Shown in pieces: positions 32,922 through 52,905 of a stretch of DNA of 64,000 nucleotides. This DNA is from Acidimicrobiaceae bacterium (GTDB taxonomy: Bacteria > Actinomycetota > Acidimicrobiia > Acidimicrobiales > Acidimicrobiaceae). The notes beneath the pieces were generated by a model. The model worked only from the letters and a program-made list of their open reading frames with translations. It did no database searches and was not told the origin of the DNA. How positions within the stretch are numbered: position 1 is the first letter of the stretch; every line of letters starts with the position of its first letter. The stretch spans positions 1 to 64,000 of the forward strand of contig JABEUN010000064.1 in NCBI GenBank assembly GCA_013044385.1, written 5' to 3'. The position numbers and the translations under genes are program-made.

Positions 32922-33653
32922 TCACGGCTGCGTGGAGCTCGCCGAGCCTATGACTCCAGATTTGAAAAATGGCCAACCCATCGGTCTTCTAAATGCACGA
33001 GATTCTGGATGAAAACCCGCGTCCTCCAGGAGCTTCAAAGGATCGGAGTTGAGCCGGCACCCACCTGTGGCTGAAGTCCAGATGGGTGCGAACCCCGACT
33101 GAAATTGGACAAACTTCGGATTCGTGGTGCATGTATGCTCGATAAAGTAGATCTTCCCGTCAGCCTTCAGGACATTCTTCAGCCTTGTCAAGGAGTGCAA
33201 AGGATCCTCAATCGAACAGAGGGAAAACGAGAAGACAACCTGGTCGAAACTAGCGGGTCTTAATATTCCGCGGTCCAGCGCCTGACCAACGGTTGTGTCG
33301 ATGATTGTTACCCGCTCTTTGACACCTAGGCGAACAACTCGTTCCTTCAGTGCCGCAACACAAGCTACATCCGGTTCAAGCAGCGTAATTGTCGAGGCAT
33401 TCAGCAAGCCAGCCAACGAGGAGCCTGTCCCCGAACCCACCTCAAGAAGATCGCCCCCAGCAGGAATGCCGAGCATCATGCGAGACTTGTCGAGTCCGAG
33501 GGGGCGGTACGCGATCTCGAGTAGGCCAAGAGTTTTTGCAAGCGCTTTGGACGTCACAAACCTTTTAAAGCTGGCCTCGGGCACCCAACTGTCCCCCCCC
33601 TCGCTGAACCTCCATTTAACCCTACCCGGACAGCCGAGGCGGTCCAGGGTCAA
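32922..33653 (-). CDS. Class I SAM-dependent methyltransferase
   Basis: Motif I is LLEVGSGTGSSLAG, motif II is the acidic LLEPD, and motif IV is SFDQVVFSFSLCSIEDP. The C-terminal YFIEHTCT resembles the METTL7/UbiE-like group. The substrate is unknown. The N-terminal 30 residues before SFKRFVT do not fit the family well, so the start may be further in. It follows the YceI-like gene by 22 bp in the same orientation, so the two are probably one operon. Confidence 0.77.
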   Translation of the reverse strand: MTLDRLGCPGRVKWRFSEGGDSWVPEASFKRFVTSKALAKTLGLLEIAYRPLGLDKSRMMLGIPAGGDLLEVGSGTGSSLAGLLNASTITLLEPDVACVAALKERVVRLGVKERVTIIDTTVGQALDRGILRPASFDQVVFSFSLCSIEDPLHSLTRLKNVLKADGKIYFIEHTCTTNPKFVQFQSGFAPIWTSATGGCRLNSDPLKLLEDAGFHPESRAFRRPMGWPFFKSGVIGSASSTQP

Positions 33654-33675: not shown

Positions 33676-34245
33676 TCACTTCAGCTCTGATGCCGTGAGT
33701 ACAACCTCCGTTTCAATTTTTGAAAGCCTGAAATCCAGTTCGAAGCTTACGATGACCTTCGGTGAGAAGCTGAGTAGATCTCTCCTTTTCAGGCCGATGT
33801 TCCGGAGATCGACGCGACCACTGCCGGACACTCGGGCGACCTCATCCCCTATCCAATCAATTGCCGTTGCACGCAGACTCTGTCGGGACGACATCCCGCG
33901 AGCCTCGAGCGAACCGACCACCCTGAACCCTCTTACCAGCGGCTGAAAGTCAGTCGAGAAGAAACGCAGATCCTCGTGACCATTCCTCCGCAGGATACCC
34001 TTAGCTACTATCCTTCTGCCAAGACGAGGTCTGGACGTGACTATGTTCTCCGGGTCGATCTGTACCGACAGCGAAACCGGGACACCGGCTTCATCCACTT
34101 CGACCTCCGCCGACAACACCCGCAGACGGGCGCTTGCGACTACAATCCCCAAGCGCTTTGCCAGAACTAACACCCCGGAGTCAGTTAGATCTGCTATCCA
34201 CGTTCCACACTTGGCAATCTCGTGCAGACTCCTAGTTGACACCAA
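33676..34245 (-). CDS. YceI-like protein
   Basis: The segments GTWIADLTDSGVLVLAKRLG, RNGHEDLRFFSTDF and SGRVDLRNIGLKRRD follow the order of the YceI lipocalin-like barrel, which binds polyisoprenoid or similar lipids. There is no signal peptide, so it is cytoplasmic. At 189 residues it has the normal size. Identification is by motif shape and is moderate. The methyltransferase gene lies just downstream. Confidence 0.65.
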   Translation of the reverse strand: MVSTRSLHEIAKCGTWIADLTDSGVLVLAKRLGIVVASARLRVLSAEVEVDEAGVPVSLSVQIDPENIVTSRPRLGRRIVAKGILRRNGHEDLRFFSTDFQPLVRGFRVVGSLEARGMSSRQSLRATAIDWIGDEVARVSGSGRVDLRNIGLKRRDLLSFSPKVIVSFELDFRLSKIETEVVLTASELK

Positions 34246-34410
34246 CTCCTCCCTTCGCTGTTGGAAGACTCAGTTGGACAACACCTCACCAGCTATCAAC
34301 ATTTAAGTCCAAACACTTATTTCTTACAATTCGAGCTTCCAAACATACTGAGCAGGTAGCCACCTGTCAGTTCTGCCTGCTCTGCGGATCCAGAACGGAT
34401 CAGGCCGTAG

Positions 34411-34618
34411 GACATTTTCTCGGCAAACTCGCACGAACATGCGGCAAACGCAATCAAATCAGGGAGATTCGCTCCCGAAATCATCCCGGTATCAATTCCT
34501 CAGAGGAAGGGTGACCCGATCGTCGTCGACACCGACGAGGGCGTAAGGCCGGGCACCACTACTGAGTCGGTCTCTAAGCTGCGACCTGCATTCGACCAAT
34601 CCGGTACCATAACTGCAG
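34411..34618 (+). pseudogene. Fragment of an acetyl-CoA acetyltransferase gene
   Basis: These 208 bp align without gaps to 52249-52456 inside the intact thiolase gene, with nine differences by my count (about 96% identity). The codon frame is intact over the whole segment: it reads FSANSHEHAANAIKSGRFAP, then on to KLRPAFDQSGTIT. The flanks show no similarity. The piece lacks the N-terminal half with the nucleophilic Cys and the C-terminal half with the His and second Cys, so it cannot be functional. Five of the nine changes alter no residue, suggesting coding constraint before fragmentation or recent gene conversion. Confidence 0.85.
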
Positions 34619-34771
34619 CTCGCACGGCCCTTCCGAACTCTATTGTTTCAGCTCTAGTTCAGATGGGCGAGCCAGAATCCCCTGGTGGCGGGGGCACCAA
34701 CTGGTTGGTTTTGTCGGCGAGATCGTTCCAGGTGAGCCCTTTGCCTAAGTGCCCAACCCAAAATGAGGATC

Positions 34772-34789
34772 GATGGGCCATGGCCCATC
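34772..34789. repeat. 18-bp perfect palindrome
   Basis: GATGGGCCATGGCCCATC is its own reverse complement. It lies 90 bp upstream of the 3-hydroxybutyryl-CoA dehydrogenase start, a position suited to an operator for this gene and the following mutase. No regulator is assigned. Confidence 0.5.
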
Positions 34790-34878
34790 CAACGACCTCA
34801 ACAAGAACGAGGGCCTACTCAGCCAATTAGATCCTCTCTGGTAAGCAAGCCGCCGGCATTATTGAGTAGGTTGGGGTA

Positions 34879-35730
34879 ATGAACATAAGTAAGGTCGGCG
34901 TTGTGGGATCGGGGATCATGGGATCTGGAATCGCTGAGGTGGCGATGATCTCCGGATTTGAAGTGGTACTGAGGTCGAGGAGGCAGGAGAGCGCAGTATC
35001 GATGGTCGGTGCGATCGAAAGATCGCTCGCAAAGCGAGTGGAACGTCAGAAGATGACCGCCGAAGATGCACGAGACGCCCTTGCACGACTCCTAGCCACC
35101 ACTGACATCGACGAACTCGGCGACTGCGATCTAGTAATCGAGTCGGTGGTCGAGGACCTCGAGGTAAAAAGACACCTCTTTGAGCATCTCGACCGGATTG
35201 TCAAGCCCCACGCGATCCTAGCCACAAACACCTCGACACTGCCGGTGGTCGACATGGCGATGGCGACCAAGCGTCCCGATTCAGTCTGCGGAATCCACTT
35301 CTTCAATCCGGCAGTCGCTATGACCCTGGTCGAAGTTGTACGACCACTAACCGCGTCCGAAGACACTATCCAAGCCGCCCTCAACTTCGCCAAGGTTTGC
35401 GGAAAAGAGCCCGTCCTGGTAAAAGATGAAGCCGGCTTCGTTGTAAACGCCCTTCTGTTTCCATATCTCAACAATGCCGTAAGGCTGTACGAGCGAGGGG
35501 TCGCCACCGCAATTGAGATCGACAAGTCGATGAAGTTAGGGTGTGGCTTCCCCATGGGGCCCCTCGCACTTTTGGACTTGGTAGGACTCGACACCTCCAT
35601 TGCAATCCTCGATGCGTTGTACAAGGAGTTCGGCGACCCCGGATCTCTGGCTGCACCGACTCTTCGGAGGATGGTCGCTGCTGGTCACCTCGGCAAAAAG
35701 AGTAGACACGGCTTCTACGACTACCATTGA
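34879..35730 (+). CDS. 3-hydroxybutyryl-CoA dehydrogenase
   Basis: This NAD(P)-dependent enzyme reduces acetoacetyl-CoA to (S)-3-hydroxybutyryl-CoA or runs in reverse. The Rossmann motif is GVVGSGIMGSGIAEVA, the catalytic His is in HFFNPAVAMTLVEVV, and the C-terminal domain has GFVVNALLFPYLNNAV and GCGFPMGPLALLDLVGLD. Length 283 residues, as in PaaH/Hbd. The ethylmalonyl-CoA mutase gene follows after 75 bp. The thiolase relic upstream suggests the ancestral order thiolase-dehydrogenase-mutase. Confidence 0.93.
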   Translation: MNISKVGVVGSGIMGSGIAEVAMISGFEVVLRSRRQESAVSMVGAIERSLAKRVERQKMTAEDARDALARLLATTDIDELGDCDLVIESVVEDLEVKRHLFEHLDRIVKPHAILATNTSTLPVVDMAMATKRPDSVCGIHFFNPAVAMTLVEVVRPLTASEDTIQAALNFAKVCGKEPVLVKDEAGFVVNALLFPYLNNAVRLYERGVATAIEIDKSMKLGCGFPMGPLALLDLVGLDTSIAILDALYKEFGDPGSLAAPTLRRMVAAGHLGKKSRHGFYDYH

Positions 35731-35805: not shown

Positions 35806-37818
35806 ATGTCTTGTTCAACGGAAGGGTCCGGGTTCAAAAAGGCAGCGGCGCATCTCGACAGGACTGACAGCCCATGGGTCATGAGGACCTACTCCGGGCA
35901 CTCTTCCGCAAGCGCATCCAACGAACTCTATCGACTCAATTTGGCAAAGGGACAGACGGGACTGTCCATTGCTTTCGATCTGCCAACACAGATCGGTTAT
36001 GATCCGGACGCCGACCAATCAAGAGGTGAGGTCGGCAAGGTCGGGGTACCCGTAGCTCATTTGGGTCAGATGGAACAACTCTTCGCCGACATACCGATCG
36101 AGCAGATGAACACCTCAATGACAATCAATGCGACTGCCGCGTGGCTCCTTGGACTTTACATAGCGTTGGCCGAGTCCAGAGGCGTCGACAAGTCGTTGCT
36201 GTCAGGTACCACACAGAACGACATTGTCAAAGAGTATCTATCCCGGGGTACCTTCATCTTCCCTCCCGATGCATCTCGACGTCTGATCGTCGACATGATC
36301 TCCTACACGGTGACCAACGTTCCCAAGTGGAATCCGATCAACATCTGTTCCTACCACCTCCAAGAGGCGGGGGCCACTCCTGTCCAAGAGGTCGCATACG
36401 CGTTGGCAACCGCCGTCGGGGTGCTCGACGCGACCCGGGAGTCCGGTCAGATACCAGATGATGACTTTCCTCAGGTTGTGGGCCGGATCTCGTTCTTCGT
36501 GAACTCTGGCATTCGCTTCATCGAAGAGAATGCAAAGATGCGGGCCTTCACCAGGTTGTGGGACCGTATCTGTACGGACAGATACGGAGTGACAGACGAG
36601 AAGCTGCGCCGCTTCCGTTACGGGGTCCAAGTGAACTCATTGGGCCTGACCGAGCAGCAGCCTGAGAACAATGTTCCACGGATCGTACTTGAGGCTCTTG
36701 GAGTTCTACTTTCACGAGATGCTAGGGCACGCGCCCTCCAACTGCCCGCCTGGAACGAAGCACTCGGCCTTCCTAGACCGTGGGATCAGCAGTGGTCTCT
36801 GAGAATCCAACAGATCCTCGCTTACGAAACAGACCTACTCGACTATCCAGACATATTCGAAGGCTCCAAGGTCATGGACGGCTTGGTTCACGAGATCGAA
36901 TCAGAGGCTTGGAGCGAGCTGACGGAGATCCTCGACAATGGTGGGATCTTCAACTACATCGATGAATTGAAATCAAGGCTGGTCAGGAGCCAGGCAGAAC
37001 GAACAGCGTCGATTGAATCGGGGGGACTAAAGGTCGTTGGCGTCAATATCTTCACCGAGACAGCAGCTGGACCACTTTCGAATCCCGATTCAGGCACACA
37101 CCTCGTAATCGACCCCGCCGTGGAGCAGGCGATGATCCACGACGTCATCGCCTGGCGGCGAGATAGGGACGCTGAACGGGTGGAGAGGGCACTCCAGGCA
37201 CTACGTGACGCCGCCAAGAGCGACACCAACATAATGATCCCTACCATCGAGCTTGCGTTGGCCGGCGGAACCACGGGAGAGTGGACCGAGGTTCTGAGGG
37301 ACACCTTCGGTGAGTACAGGGCGCCAACCGGAGTATCTGGAGGAGTAGGCCGGCGCGAGAAACAGATGTCCCGCATTGCCCAACAGGCCAGGTCGCTCCC
37401 AGGTGGTCCGCCTCGACTTCTCGTTGCGAAGCCCGGACTAGATGGTCACTCAAACGGCGCAGAACAGATTGCAGTTGCTGCTAGAGACGCAGGTTTTGAG
37501 GTCGTTTACCAGGGGATCCGTCTCACTCCAGAACAGATTGCAGTTGCTGCTAGAGACGAGGACGTGGATCTCGTCGGCATCTCGATTCTCTCCGGATCTC
37601 ATTTGGAACTGGTTCCACAGGTCGTCACAGCGCTCTTGCACCAAGGCGTCGACGCAGAGGTGATAGTAGGTGGTATCATTCCCGCTGCTGATGCCGCCAA
37701 ACTCCAGGAATCCGGCGTGGCAAGGATATATACGCCTAAGGATTACGAGATATCCGCGATCATGGAGGATCTTTTGAAATTGACGATCCGACATAGAGCG
37801 AGAACCGAATCTGATTAG
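35806..37818 (+). CDS. ecm: Ethylmalonyl-CoA mutase (MeaA type, B12-dependent)
   Basis: A single chain of 670 residues carries the acyl-CoA mutase barrel and a C-terminal cobalamin domain. The base-off motif DxHxxG is D546-G-H548-S-N-G551. The segments RTYSGHSSASASNELYR, STTINATA-like MNTSMTINATAAWLL and PRPWDQQWSLRIQQILAYE match MeaA/Ecm rather than methylmalonyl-CoA mutase, which has a longer or two-subunit form. It converts ethylmalonyl-CoA to methylsuccinyl-CoA after crotonyl-CoA carboxylase/reductase. The codons for EQIAVAARD occur twice as an exact 30-bp repeat. It follows the dehydrogenase by 75 bp. Confidence 0.9.
   Translation: MSCSTEGSGFKKAAAHLDRTDSPWVMRTYSGHSSASASNELYRLNLAKGQTGLSIAFDLPTQIGYDPDADQSRGEVGKVGVPVAHLGQMEQLFADIPIEQMNTSMTINATAAWLLGLYIALAESRGVDKSLLSGTTQNDIVKEYLSRGTFIFPPDASRRLIVDMISYTVTNVPKWNPINICSYHLQEAGATPVQEVAYALATAVGVLDATRESGQIPDDDFPQVVGRISFFVNSGIRFIEENAKMRAFTRLWDRICTDRYGVTDEKLRRFRYGVQVNSLGLTEQQPENNVPRIVLEALGVLLSRDARARALQLPAWNEALGLPRPWDQQWSLRIQQILAYETDLLDYPDIFEGSKVMDGLVHEIESEAWSELTEILDNGGIFNYIDELKSRLVRSQAERTASIESGGLKVVGVNIFTETAAGPLSNPDSGTHLVIDPAVEQAMIHDVIAWRRDRDAERVERALQALRDAAKSDTNIMIPTIELALAGGTTGEWTEVLRDTFGEYRAPTGVSGGVGRREKQMSRIAQQARSLPGGPPRLLVAKPGLDGHSNGAEQIAVAARDAGFEVVYQGIRLTPEQIAVAARDEDVDLVGISILSGSHLELVPQVVTALLHQGVDAEVIVGGIIPAADAAKLQESGVARIYTPKDYEISAIMEDLLKLTIRHRARTESD
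37460..37489 (+). repeat. Exact direct repeat in ecm, copy 1
   Basis: Thirty bases beginning CAGAACAGATTGCAG encode EQIAVAARD in the helix after the DxHxxG loop of the B12 domain. They recur without change at 37529-37558, offset by 69 bp. Confidence 0.9.
37529..37558 (+). repeat. Exact direct repeat in ecm, copy 2
   Basis: This is the second identical copy of the 30-bp unit, again encoding EQIAVAARD, now after GIRLTP. The protein aligns to MeaA without an insertion, so the repeat replaced the native second helix codons rather than adding residues. Confidence 0.9.
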
Positions 37819-46042: not shown

Positions 46043-46068
46043 CTCGGACCCCCATATGGGGGTCCGAG
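46043..46068 (-). terminator. Hairpin downstream of tRNA-Ser(CGA)
   Basis: CTCGGACCCCC pairs perfectly with GGGGGTCCGAG around ATAT, an 11-bp GC-rich stem. It lies 9 bp past the tRNA 3' end on the minus strand and 43 bp past the oxidoreductase stop on the plus strand, so it could end both converging transcripts. The U-run is weak. Confidence 0.6.
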
Positions 46069-46077
46069 CACTCCCAG

Positions 46078-46164
46078 CGGAGAGGGTGGGATTTGAACCC
46101 ACGGTGCCATCACTGACACAGCGGTTTTCGAGACCGCCCGATTCGGCCACTCTCGCACCTCTCC
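46078..46164 (-). tRNA. tRNA-Ser (CGA)
   Basis: The cloverleaf has a perfect acceptor stem GGAGAGG/CCTCTCC with discriminator G, a long variable arm typical of tRNA-Ser, anticodon loop CTCGAAA giving CGA, and T arm GTGGGTTCAAATCCCAC. CCA is not encoded. It lies downstream of tadA on the same strand, with a strong hairpin after it. Confidence 0.96.
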
Positions 46165-50150: not shown

Positions 50151-51527
50151 TTACTGATTCGCCTCCGCACGTTTTGCCATCAGCTTCTCGGAGTGCCTCC
50201 GGAAAAGCGTTATCCTGTCTTCGCCCACCTTGTCGCGAAACTCTGGATCGTCGATACCTTGGCCCTCTGCATCGGCCTGACAAAGGATCCCCACCTTCCC
50301 CTCGTGGAGGTTCTTGTGGACCACATATGTCGCCTCTCCCACGCTTTCGAGTGGGTAGACGGCAGACAGAACCGGCTGCACCTTCCCCTTGGCTATCAAC
50401 TTATTAGCGTCCCATGCTTCTCTGTAATTGGCGAAGTGGCTCGACTTGATGCTCTTCAGCTTCATCCAGAGGTGACGGTTGTCGTACTCGATCATGTAGC
50501 CCGTAGTGGCGGCGCAGGTCATAATGATCCCGCCCCTTTTGGCAACATATACAGATGCTCCCATGGTCTGGCGACCCGGGTGCTCAAAGACAATATCGGG
50601 ATCCTCGCCGACCTGCTTTCGGATGTCATTCCCAAAACGTCGCCACTCAGATTCATCCTGATTGTGGGCATCCTTCCAGAACTTGTAGTCACCGGCGCGT
50701 CTATCGATAACCGCTTCACAACCCAACTCGTTCAGCAGCTCCACCTTGTCGGGGGAGCTGACCACACCGATGGGGATTCCACCACCGTTTAGGACGTACT
50801 GGACCGCATAGCCACCGATACCACCCGTAGCACCCCAAACCAGCACGGTCTGGCCCTGCTTCATAGACGCCCCGTTTCTGGAGACGAGCATCCGGTAAGA
50901 CGTGGAGTTACAAAGTGCATTGACCGCTGACTCCTCCCAGCTAAGGTGAGCTGGCTTCGGCATTAGCTGGTTCGCCTTCACGAGGGTAAAGTCCGCTAAA
51001 CCACCGAAATTGGATTCGAAACCCCAAATCTTCTGATCATACGAGAGCATGGAGTCATCGTGACCGGTCGGGTCCTGGTCATCGACATAGTTGCAGTGAA
51101 TGACAACTTTGTCCCCTACCCTCCAATTTCGGACCGCCGAACCTACTCTTACAATTACGCCAGCCCCGTCCGATCCGACGATATGGTAGGGAAGTTCATG
51201 CCTTTTTGCCCAGTACCTTCCACTCCGCCCGAGACGTTTGAGCATCTCGAAGGTCGGGATCGGCTCGAAGATCGAAGACCACACCGTGTTGTAATTGATC
51301 GACGAGGCCATTACTGCAACGACGACCTCATCGGGGGCCATTTCGGGAAATTCCACCTGCTCAACGTGGAGTGACTTCCGCGGATCCTTGTCCTGGCTGG
51401 CCATTCCCGCGAACATGTCGACCTCATCCTGCTGTACAAATGCAGCACGGAAAGTCTTCGGCAATGGCATCGCCGCCAGCACCTCCGAAGAGACACCCGC
51501 GGCGATGGCTTCTGCAAATTCAGTCAT
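50151..51527 (-). CDS. ccrA: Crotonyl-CoA carboxylase/reductase
   Basis: Ccr makes ethylmalonyl-CoA from crotonyl-CoA, CO2 and NADPH. It is a medium-chain dehydrogenase of 458 residues with the family-specific ASSINYNTVWSSIFEP, the long insert HCNYVDDQDPTGHDDSMLS, and nucleotide-binding VLVWGATGGIGGYAVQYV. FEHPGRQTMGASVYVAKRGG also matches. The start is ATG 51527 or GTG 51530. It forms an operon with the epimerase and is divergent from the thiolase. Confidence 0.95.
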   Translation of the reverse strand: MTEFAEAIAAGVSSEVLAAMPLPKTFRAAFVQQDEVDMFAGMASQDKDPRKSLHVEQVEFPEMAPDEVVVAVMASSINYNTVWSSIFEPIPTFEMLKRLGRSGRYWAKRHELPYHIVGSDGAGVIVRVGSAVRNWRVGDKVVIHCNYVDDQDPTGHDDSMLSYDQKIWGFESNFGGLADFTLVKANQLMPKPAHLSWEESAVNALCNSTSYRMLVSRNGASMKQGQTVLVWGATGGIGGYAVQYVLNGGGIPIGVVSSPDKVELLNELGCEAVIDRRAGDYKFWKDAHNQDESEWRRFGNDIRKQVGEDPDIVFEHPGRQTMGASVYVAKRGGIIMTCAATTGYMIEYDNRHLWMKLKSIKSSHFANYREAWDANKLIAKGKVQPVLSAVYPLESVGEATYVVHKNLHEGKVGILCQADAEGQGIDDPEFRDKVGEDRITLFRRHSEKLMAKRAEANQ

Positions 51528-51720
51528 CACTCAAACCTAGTCCAAAGCTCTCCGGATTGTTACGAACTTACCCACCGATGCAAAGGATTCGAATACGGCC
51601 CAACACCACTAAGCAGCAGCTACTGGCCCGACGAGCTGCCAAAGTCGCTGTCATCAGATCTCAGCGGGATTTAGAATTTCGCCCTAGAATCTGAAGGGAA
51701 ATCAACGTCGGAGGGACGAG

Positions 51721-52905
51721 ATGCCTGGATCAGTTATAGTTGCCGGTGCAAGAACACCGATTGGAAAGATGTCAGGAAGTCTGGCCGACTTCACAGCGAT
51801 GGACCTCGGTGGGATAGCCATCAAGGAGGCACTCAGCCGAGCCAAGGTAGCAGCCGACAGGGTCCAGTACATCTTCATGGGCCAGGTCCTCCAAGCTGGA
51901 CAGGGACAGATCACCGCTCGCCAGGCCGGAGTCAAGGCAGGCATTCCAATGACGGTTCCAGCAACGACCATCAACAAGGTCTGCCTGTCCGGACTGAATG
52001 CGATCTATCTAGCGGATCTGATGATCACCGCCGGAGAAGCCGACATCGTCGTGGCGGGTGGAATGGAGTCCATGACTCGGGCACCCTACCTACTAAATCA
52101 GGCACGGTCTGGCTATAGATTCGGCAATGGGGATCTGGTTGACTCCATGCTGCACGACGGACTGTTCTGTGCATTCGACCAAGTTGCGATGGGTCTTGGA
52201 ACCGAGCGTTACTGTACCCACTTCCCGGGAGTATCAAGACAGCGGCAAGACAGTTTCTCGGCAAACTCGCATGAGCGTGCGGCAAACGCAATCAAAGCAG
52301 GGAGATTCGCTCCCGAAATCATCCCGGTATCAATTCCTCAGAGGAAGGGTGACCCGATCGTCGTCGACACCGACGAGGGAGTAAGGCCGGGCACCACTAC
52401 TGAGTCGCTCTCCAAGCTGCGACCTGCATTCGACCAATCCGGTACCATAACCGCAGGCAACTCCTCACAGATCTCTGACGGTGCAGCGGCCCTGATTGTA
52501 GTCTCAAGAAAAGTTGCTGACCAGCTCGGTGTCGACCCCCTTGGAGAGGTACTGTCCTACGGACAGGTTGCAGGTCCGGATGCTTCACTGCTTACACAGC
52601 CGTCTCGGTCGATTCTTTCCGCACTTTCCAAGATCGGCAAGCAAGTAACGGACGTCGATCTGTTCGAAATGAACGAAGCATTCGCAGCTGTCGCCTTAGC
52701 TTCAATGGACGATCTAGGGATCTCTGACGACATCGTAAACGTGAATGGTGGTGCAGTAGCTCTAGGTCACCCAATCGGCGCTTCGGGGGCTCGCCTCGCC
52801 CTCACACTACTCACCGAACTGCAAAGGCGAGGTGGAGGAATTGGTGCGGCATCTCTTTGCGGAGGTGGAGGCCAGGGCGACGCACTTATAGTCAAGTCTC
52901 TGTAA
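51721..52905 (+). CDS. Acetyl-CoA C-acetyltransferase (thiolase)
   Basis: The enzyme condenses two acetyl-CoA to acetoacetyl-CoA. The nucleophilic Cys is in INKVCLSGLNAIYLAD (about residue 90), the His in GGAVALGHPIGASGAR, and the second Cys in SLCGGGGQGDALIV. Full length, 394 residues. It is divergent from ccrA across a 190-bp gap. A 208-bp piece of its middle (52249-52456) recurs as a pseudogene fragment at 34411-34618. A strong hairpin terminator follows. Confidence 0.95.
   Translation: MPGSVIVAGARTPIGKMSGSLADFTAMDLGGIAIKEALSRAKVAADRVQYIFMGQVLQAGQGQITARQAGVKAGIPMTVPATTINKVCLSGLNAIYLADLMITAGEADIVVAGGMESMTRAPYLLNQARSGYRFGNGDLVDSMLHDGLFCAFDQVAMGLGTERYCTHFPGVSRQRQDSFSANSHERAANAIKAGRFAPEIIPVSIPQRKGDPIVVDTDEGVRPGTTTESLSKLRPAFDQSGTITAGNSSQISDGAAALIVVSRKVADQLGVDPLGEVLSYGQVAGPDASLLTQPSRSILSALSKIGKQVTDVDLFEMNEAFAAVALASMDDLGISDDIVNVNGGAVALGHPIGASGARLALTLLTELQRRGGGIGAASLCGGGGQGDALIVKSL

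Follow-up and report, generated by a model that had tools for sequence, protein, structure and literature searches.

A 208-bp piece of a thiolase gene upstream of hbd in an Acidimicrobiaceae genome, most probably a lineage-specific ectopic partial duplication

In the window, i.e. the whole stretch of 64,000 nucleotides of an Acidimicrobiaceae contig analysed here, a short piece nearly identical to the inside of a thiolase gene lies in sense orientation 260 bp upstream of the gene for 3-hydroxybutyryl-CoA dehydrogenase, at 18 kb from the intact thiolase gene. This locus raises the question of whether the piece is the remainder of a second, lost thiolase or a segment copied in from elsewhere, and whether it bears on the separation of the ethylmalonyl-CoA genes into two loci. 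The features concerned are as follows.

33676..34245, minus strand: YceI-like gene, left neighbour of the gap (Pfam PF04264)
34246..34878, no strand: gap between the YceI-like gene and hbd, putative insertion target; 633 bp, 425 bp minus the fragment
34411..34618, plus strand: thiolase fragment, codons 177-245 and one base; predicted non-functional partial duplicate
34879..35730, plus strand: hbd, 3-hydroxybutyryl-CoA dehydrogenase (Pfam 3HCDH_N, 3HCDH)
35806..37818, plus strand: ecm, ethylmalonyl-CoA/methylmalonyl-CoA mutase family (Pfam MM_CoA_mutase, B12-binding)
50151..51530, minus strand: crotonyl-CoA carboxylase/reductase-like gene adjoining the intact thiolase, which we take to be ccr from general knowledge of the family (Pfam ADH_N, ADH_zinc_N)
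51721..52905, plus strand: intact thiolase of the acetyl-CoA acetyltransferase type, with the copy source at 52249-52456 (Pfam Thiolase_N, Thiolase_C)

Comparison of the window with itself by BLASTN aligned 34411-34618 with 52249-52456 over 208 bp, without gaps and with nine mismatches; a chance match between the fragment and the thiolase gene is excluded by the E-value of 4.5e-92. The identity is 95.7%, corresponding to a divergence of 4.3% between both copies. The boundaries of the fragment are sharp on both sides and its flanks, as the initial annotation had already described, are unrelated to those of the thiolase gene. The parent gene encodes a full-length thiolase (394 aa), and the fragment covers 69 of its 394 codons. 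The fragment is its only close copy in the genome, the whole assembly (2,817,353 bases, 95 contigs) having returned no close matches besides these two. Three more thiolase genes are present; they share 37-42% protein identity with the parent and are not the source of the fragment. A phage origin was also considered and discarded, the exact pattern being absent from viral contigs and the protein search giving distant matches only. When 55 kb of the window were compared with the whole genome, no other dispersed copies of comparable identity and length were found, with the exception of a 66-bp match at two contig ends. The latter stretch (34-99, near the contig start) matches the end of a different contig (C41:47-112) at 98% identity and is probably a repeat where the assembly broke.

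The surroundings of hbd were read in 14 of 15 related genomes belonging to the same genus, family and order, namely four congeners (G001-G004) and ten further genomes (G005, G007, G011, G012, G020, G021, G022, G026, G036 and G037); in one more genome (G025), the stretch read contained hbd but no ecm. The gene order ppi-pepE-hbd-ecm-GGDEF-pccB is found in most relatives, and neither a thiolase nor a piece of one is located directly upstream of hbd in any of the four congeners and ten further genomes. Their thiolase is encoded elsewhere, next to ccr in most of the genomes where both were seen, in a conserved neighbourhood, and at a distance from hbd ranging from several to ~28 kb when both are on one contig. 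Since hbd of the relatives has no thiolase upstream and their thiolase occupies a separate place, the two-locus layout of the pathway is ancestral and owes nothing to the fragment. This corrects the tempting inference that the fragment marks how these genes became split, the separation of thiolase-ccr and hbd-ecm being common to relatives of the family and order; the expectation of a thiolase gene at the site upstream of hbd is not supported either, comparison of this locus in related genomes having revealed no full thiolase. A scan of genome contigs recovered distant hbd genes only. The YceI-like gene has counterparts of ~31% identity at the same position in the congeners. No methyltransferase gene was seen in the congeners at the position corresponding to the one located here between pepE and the YceI-like gene (32922-33653), although G020 and G026 carry weak counterparts of it in the vicinity of hbd.

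The gap that separates hbd from the YceI-like gene provides a further indication on the origin of the fragment. It measures 429 bp in G004, 404 bp in G002, 401 bp in G001 and 430 bp in G003, and 633 bp here; removal of the 208 bp of the fragment leaves 425 bp, a length matching that of the congeners. Compared by length, the gaps agree with a clean insertion and not with a 1.2-kb gene having been deleted; the congener intergenic sequences before hbd are too diverged to align, and the exact empty site is not seen. The initial annotation had put forward the loss of a second thiolase as one of two options, in which a complete gene upstream of hbd was deleted except for the 208-bp piece. The location of the piece upstream of the hbd-ecm pair, in the same orientation, would agree with such a loss, which we nevertheless hold to be quite improbable: a thiolase occurs at that place in no relative examined, the leftover flanks sum to the usual gap length, and a full recent duplication would have to be followed by a deletion that precisely spared 208 bp. 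Nor did the flanks contain any other thiolase remnants in collinear position; their alignment scores fell within those of shuffles or, for a weak one on the left side, slightly above them yet in non-collinear position, and an extended diverged homology was consequently rejected. The absence of the piece from the relatives and the agreement of the reduced gap with theirs support the other option, in which it was copied in.

The differences between the two copies allow this copying to be dated. The count gave five synonymous and four non-synonymous differences (overall dN 0.026 and dS 0.10, a ratio to which one lineage under constraint and one without it both contribute), the polarity of which was read from relatives (29 thiolases of the family and three congeners). 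On the side of the fragment are GAA185 (synonymous) and the replacements of Arg186 by His and Leu230 by Val; both residues are invariant in 29 of 29 family thiolases, and the three congeners all share the base or residue of the gene at sites 185, 186 and 230. On the side of the gene are GGA220 (synonymous) and, at a variable site, Ala193. No safe polarity could be given to codon 178, nor to position three of codons 184, 231 and 244. Because only four substitutions are firmly assignable, some of them with homoplasy, the apparent relaxation of constraint in the fragment relative to its parent is a matter of small numbers and rests on two sites. In a tree built on 207 aligned bases and 29 family sequences, the fragment pairs with the gene at the end of a long shared branch (0.52), and both tips are short, that of the fragment (0.036) being longer than that of the gene (0.011), in agreement with a relaxed constraint; the copying consequently post-dates the separation from every available species. 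The initial qualification of the event as recent holds in this sense, that is, later than the split from all available relatives, but has to be tempered by the 4.3% of divergence already accumulated.

Judged from these substitutions, the pattern is what a defunct copy next to a functioning gene would show, and it argues against ongoing conversion as well as against a mere strain variant introduced by the assembler. Conversion had been suggested from the high identity and intact frame; an ongoing process is not needed, and the replacements specific to the fragment at invariant residues argue against it. A piece of a strain-variant thiolase misjoined into the gap through an assembly or binning artefact is conceivable for a draft assembly of 95 contigs, in which the 82-bp identical core of the two copies could confuse an assembly with short k. 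This explanation appears unlikely, as variants close to either end connect the fragment with its own flanks, replacements at two residues invariant in 29 thiolases are unexpected in a working strain variant, and the estimated contamination is 0.58%. A diversity-generating retroelement or an A-specific mutation process was rejected, the differences being of mixed kinds.

The reading frame noted as intact is indeed open throughout the fragment. It is immediately preceded by a TAG stop, and its first in-frame start codon (34663) is located downstream of the fragment, which has neither a start of its own nor a complete ORF; with a stop before it and the first in-frame start behind it, the fragment is predicted not to be expressible as part of a thiolase in the usual way. 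A function, for example in the hbd-ecm operon as a leader or regulatory RNA or in gene conversion of the thiolase as a donor, could be evoked from its sense orientation at a short distance from hbd and its conserved identity with the gene. Such a role is extremely doubtful: the fragment is absent in relatives, matches no Rfam family, does not fold beyond shuffles (z = -1.2) and carries no promoter-like site that could be found on its own strand, and the differences remaining at both of its ends oppose frequent conversion. The empty Rfam search and the z value led us to reject its interpretation as a structured RNA, and a non-functional, dead partial copy is the best reading of its sequence. 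Between the fragment and hbd, a perfect 18-bp palindrome, GATGGGCCATGGCCCATC (34772-34789), precedes the hbd start by ~90 bp; it occurs once in the window, has no counterpart in the congeners examined, and is a possible regulator site. Another perfect palindrome, of 26 bp, CTCGGACCCCCATATGGGGGTCCGAG (46043-46068), stands beside a tRNA-Ser gene (46077-46164) and may form a terminator-like hairpin.

Taken as a whole, the fragment is most probably a lineage-specific ectopic partial duplication. After the split from the available congeners, 208 bp from the inside of the thiolase gene, either the organism's own or a conspecific's, would have been copied and placed in the gap already present before hbd, then ~425 bp long, with no detectable loss of target DNA. 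The copy would then have drifted as non-coding DNA, the parent gene staying under purifying selection. No target-site duplication or flanking direct repeat was found at its ends, and neither extended homology nor microhomology at the junctions, as examined in the occupied site. In view of this lack of target-site duplication, transposon and junction homology, the insertion may have proceeded through non-homologous (illegitimate) recombination or through repair-template copying with the thiolase as template. A copy borne by transposition was set aside, there being no target-site duplication, mobile element or further copies.

A second short repetition lies in the part of ecm encoding the B12-binding domain, where two 33-bp stretches (37460-37493 and 37529-37561) are almost identical (24/24 over eight codons). 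These are closer to each other within a genome than between genomes (13 genomes, permutation p 0.0002, and p 0.0026 when this genome is left out, base composition being uncontrolled in both cases), and a concerted evolution within the gene is possible. Frequent copying of short gene stretches to other places of the genome in this lineage, with the fragment and the ecm repeat as products of one templated-copying process, seems very unlikely to us.

Events of illegitimate recombination or templated repair are known in bacteria (Hulter and Wackernagel 2008, as described in PMC4437187; Harms et al. 2016, as cited in PMC8116780). The fragment would resemble the double illegitimate recombination of short intragenomic or extragenomic DNA in that a short segment from another part of the genome is found at a site without extended homology, and differs from it in that the thiolase segment appears added rather than substituted and junction microhomology was not found. 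It also shares with the intergenic gene remnants, or fragment pseudogenes, treated by Pseudofinder (PMC9336565) the status of a gene piece without ORF call, intergenic and similar to an intact gene. Whereas most such remnants are decayed original genes, the thiolase fragment is a partial copy whose parent persists intact 18 kb away. With 238 and 305 intergenic gene remnants reported in two genomes (PMC9336565), such remnants are common in bacteria, and the thiolase fragment is among them an ordinary scar: a well-dated small intragenomic copy in decay, which matters little as it stands.
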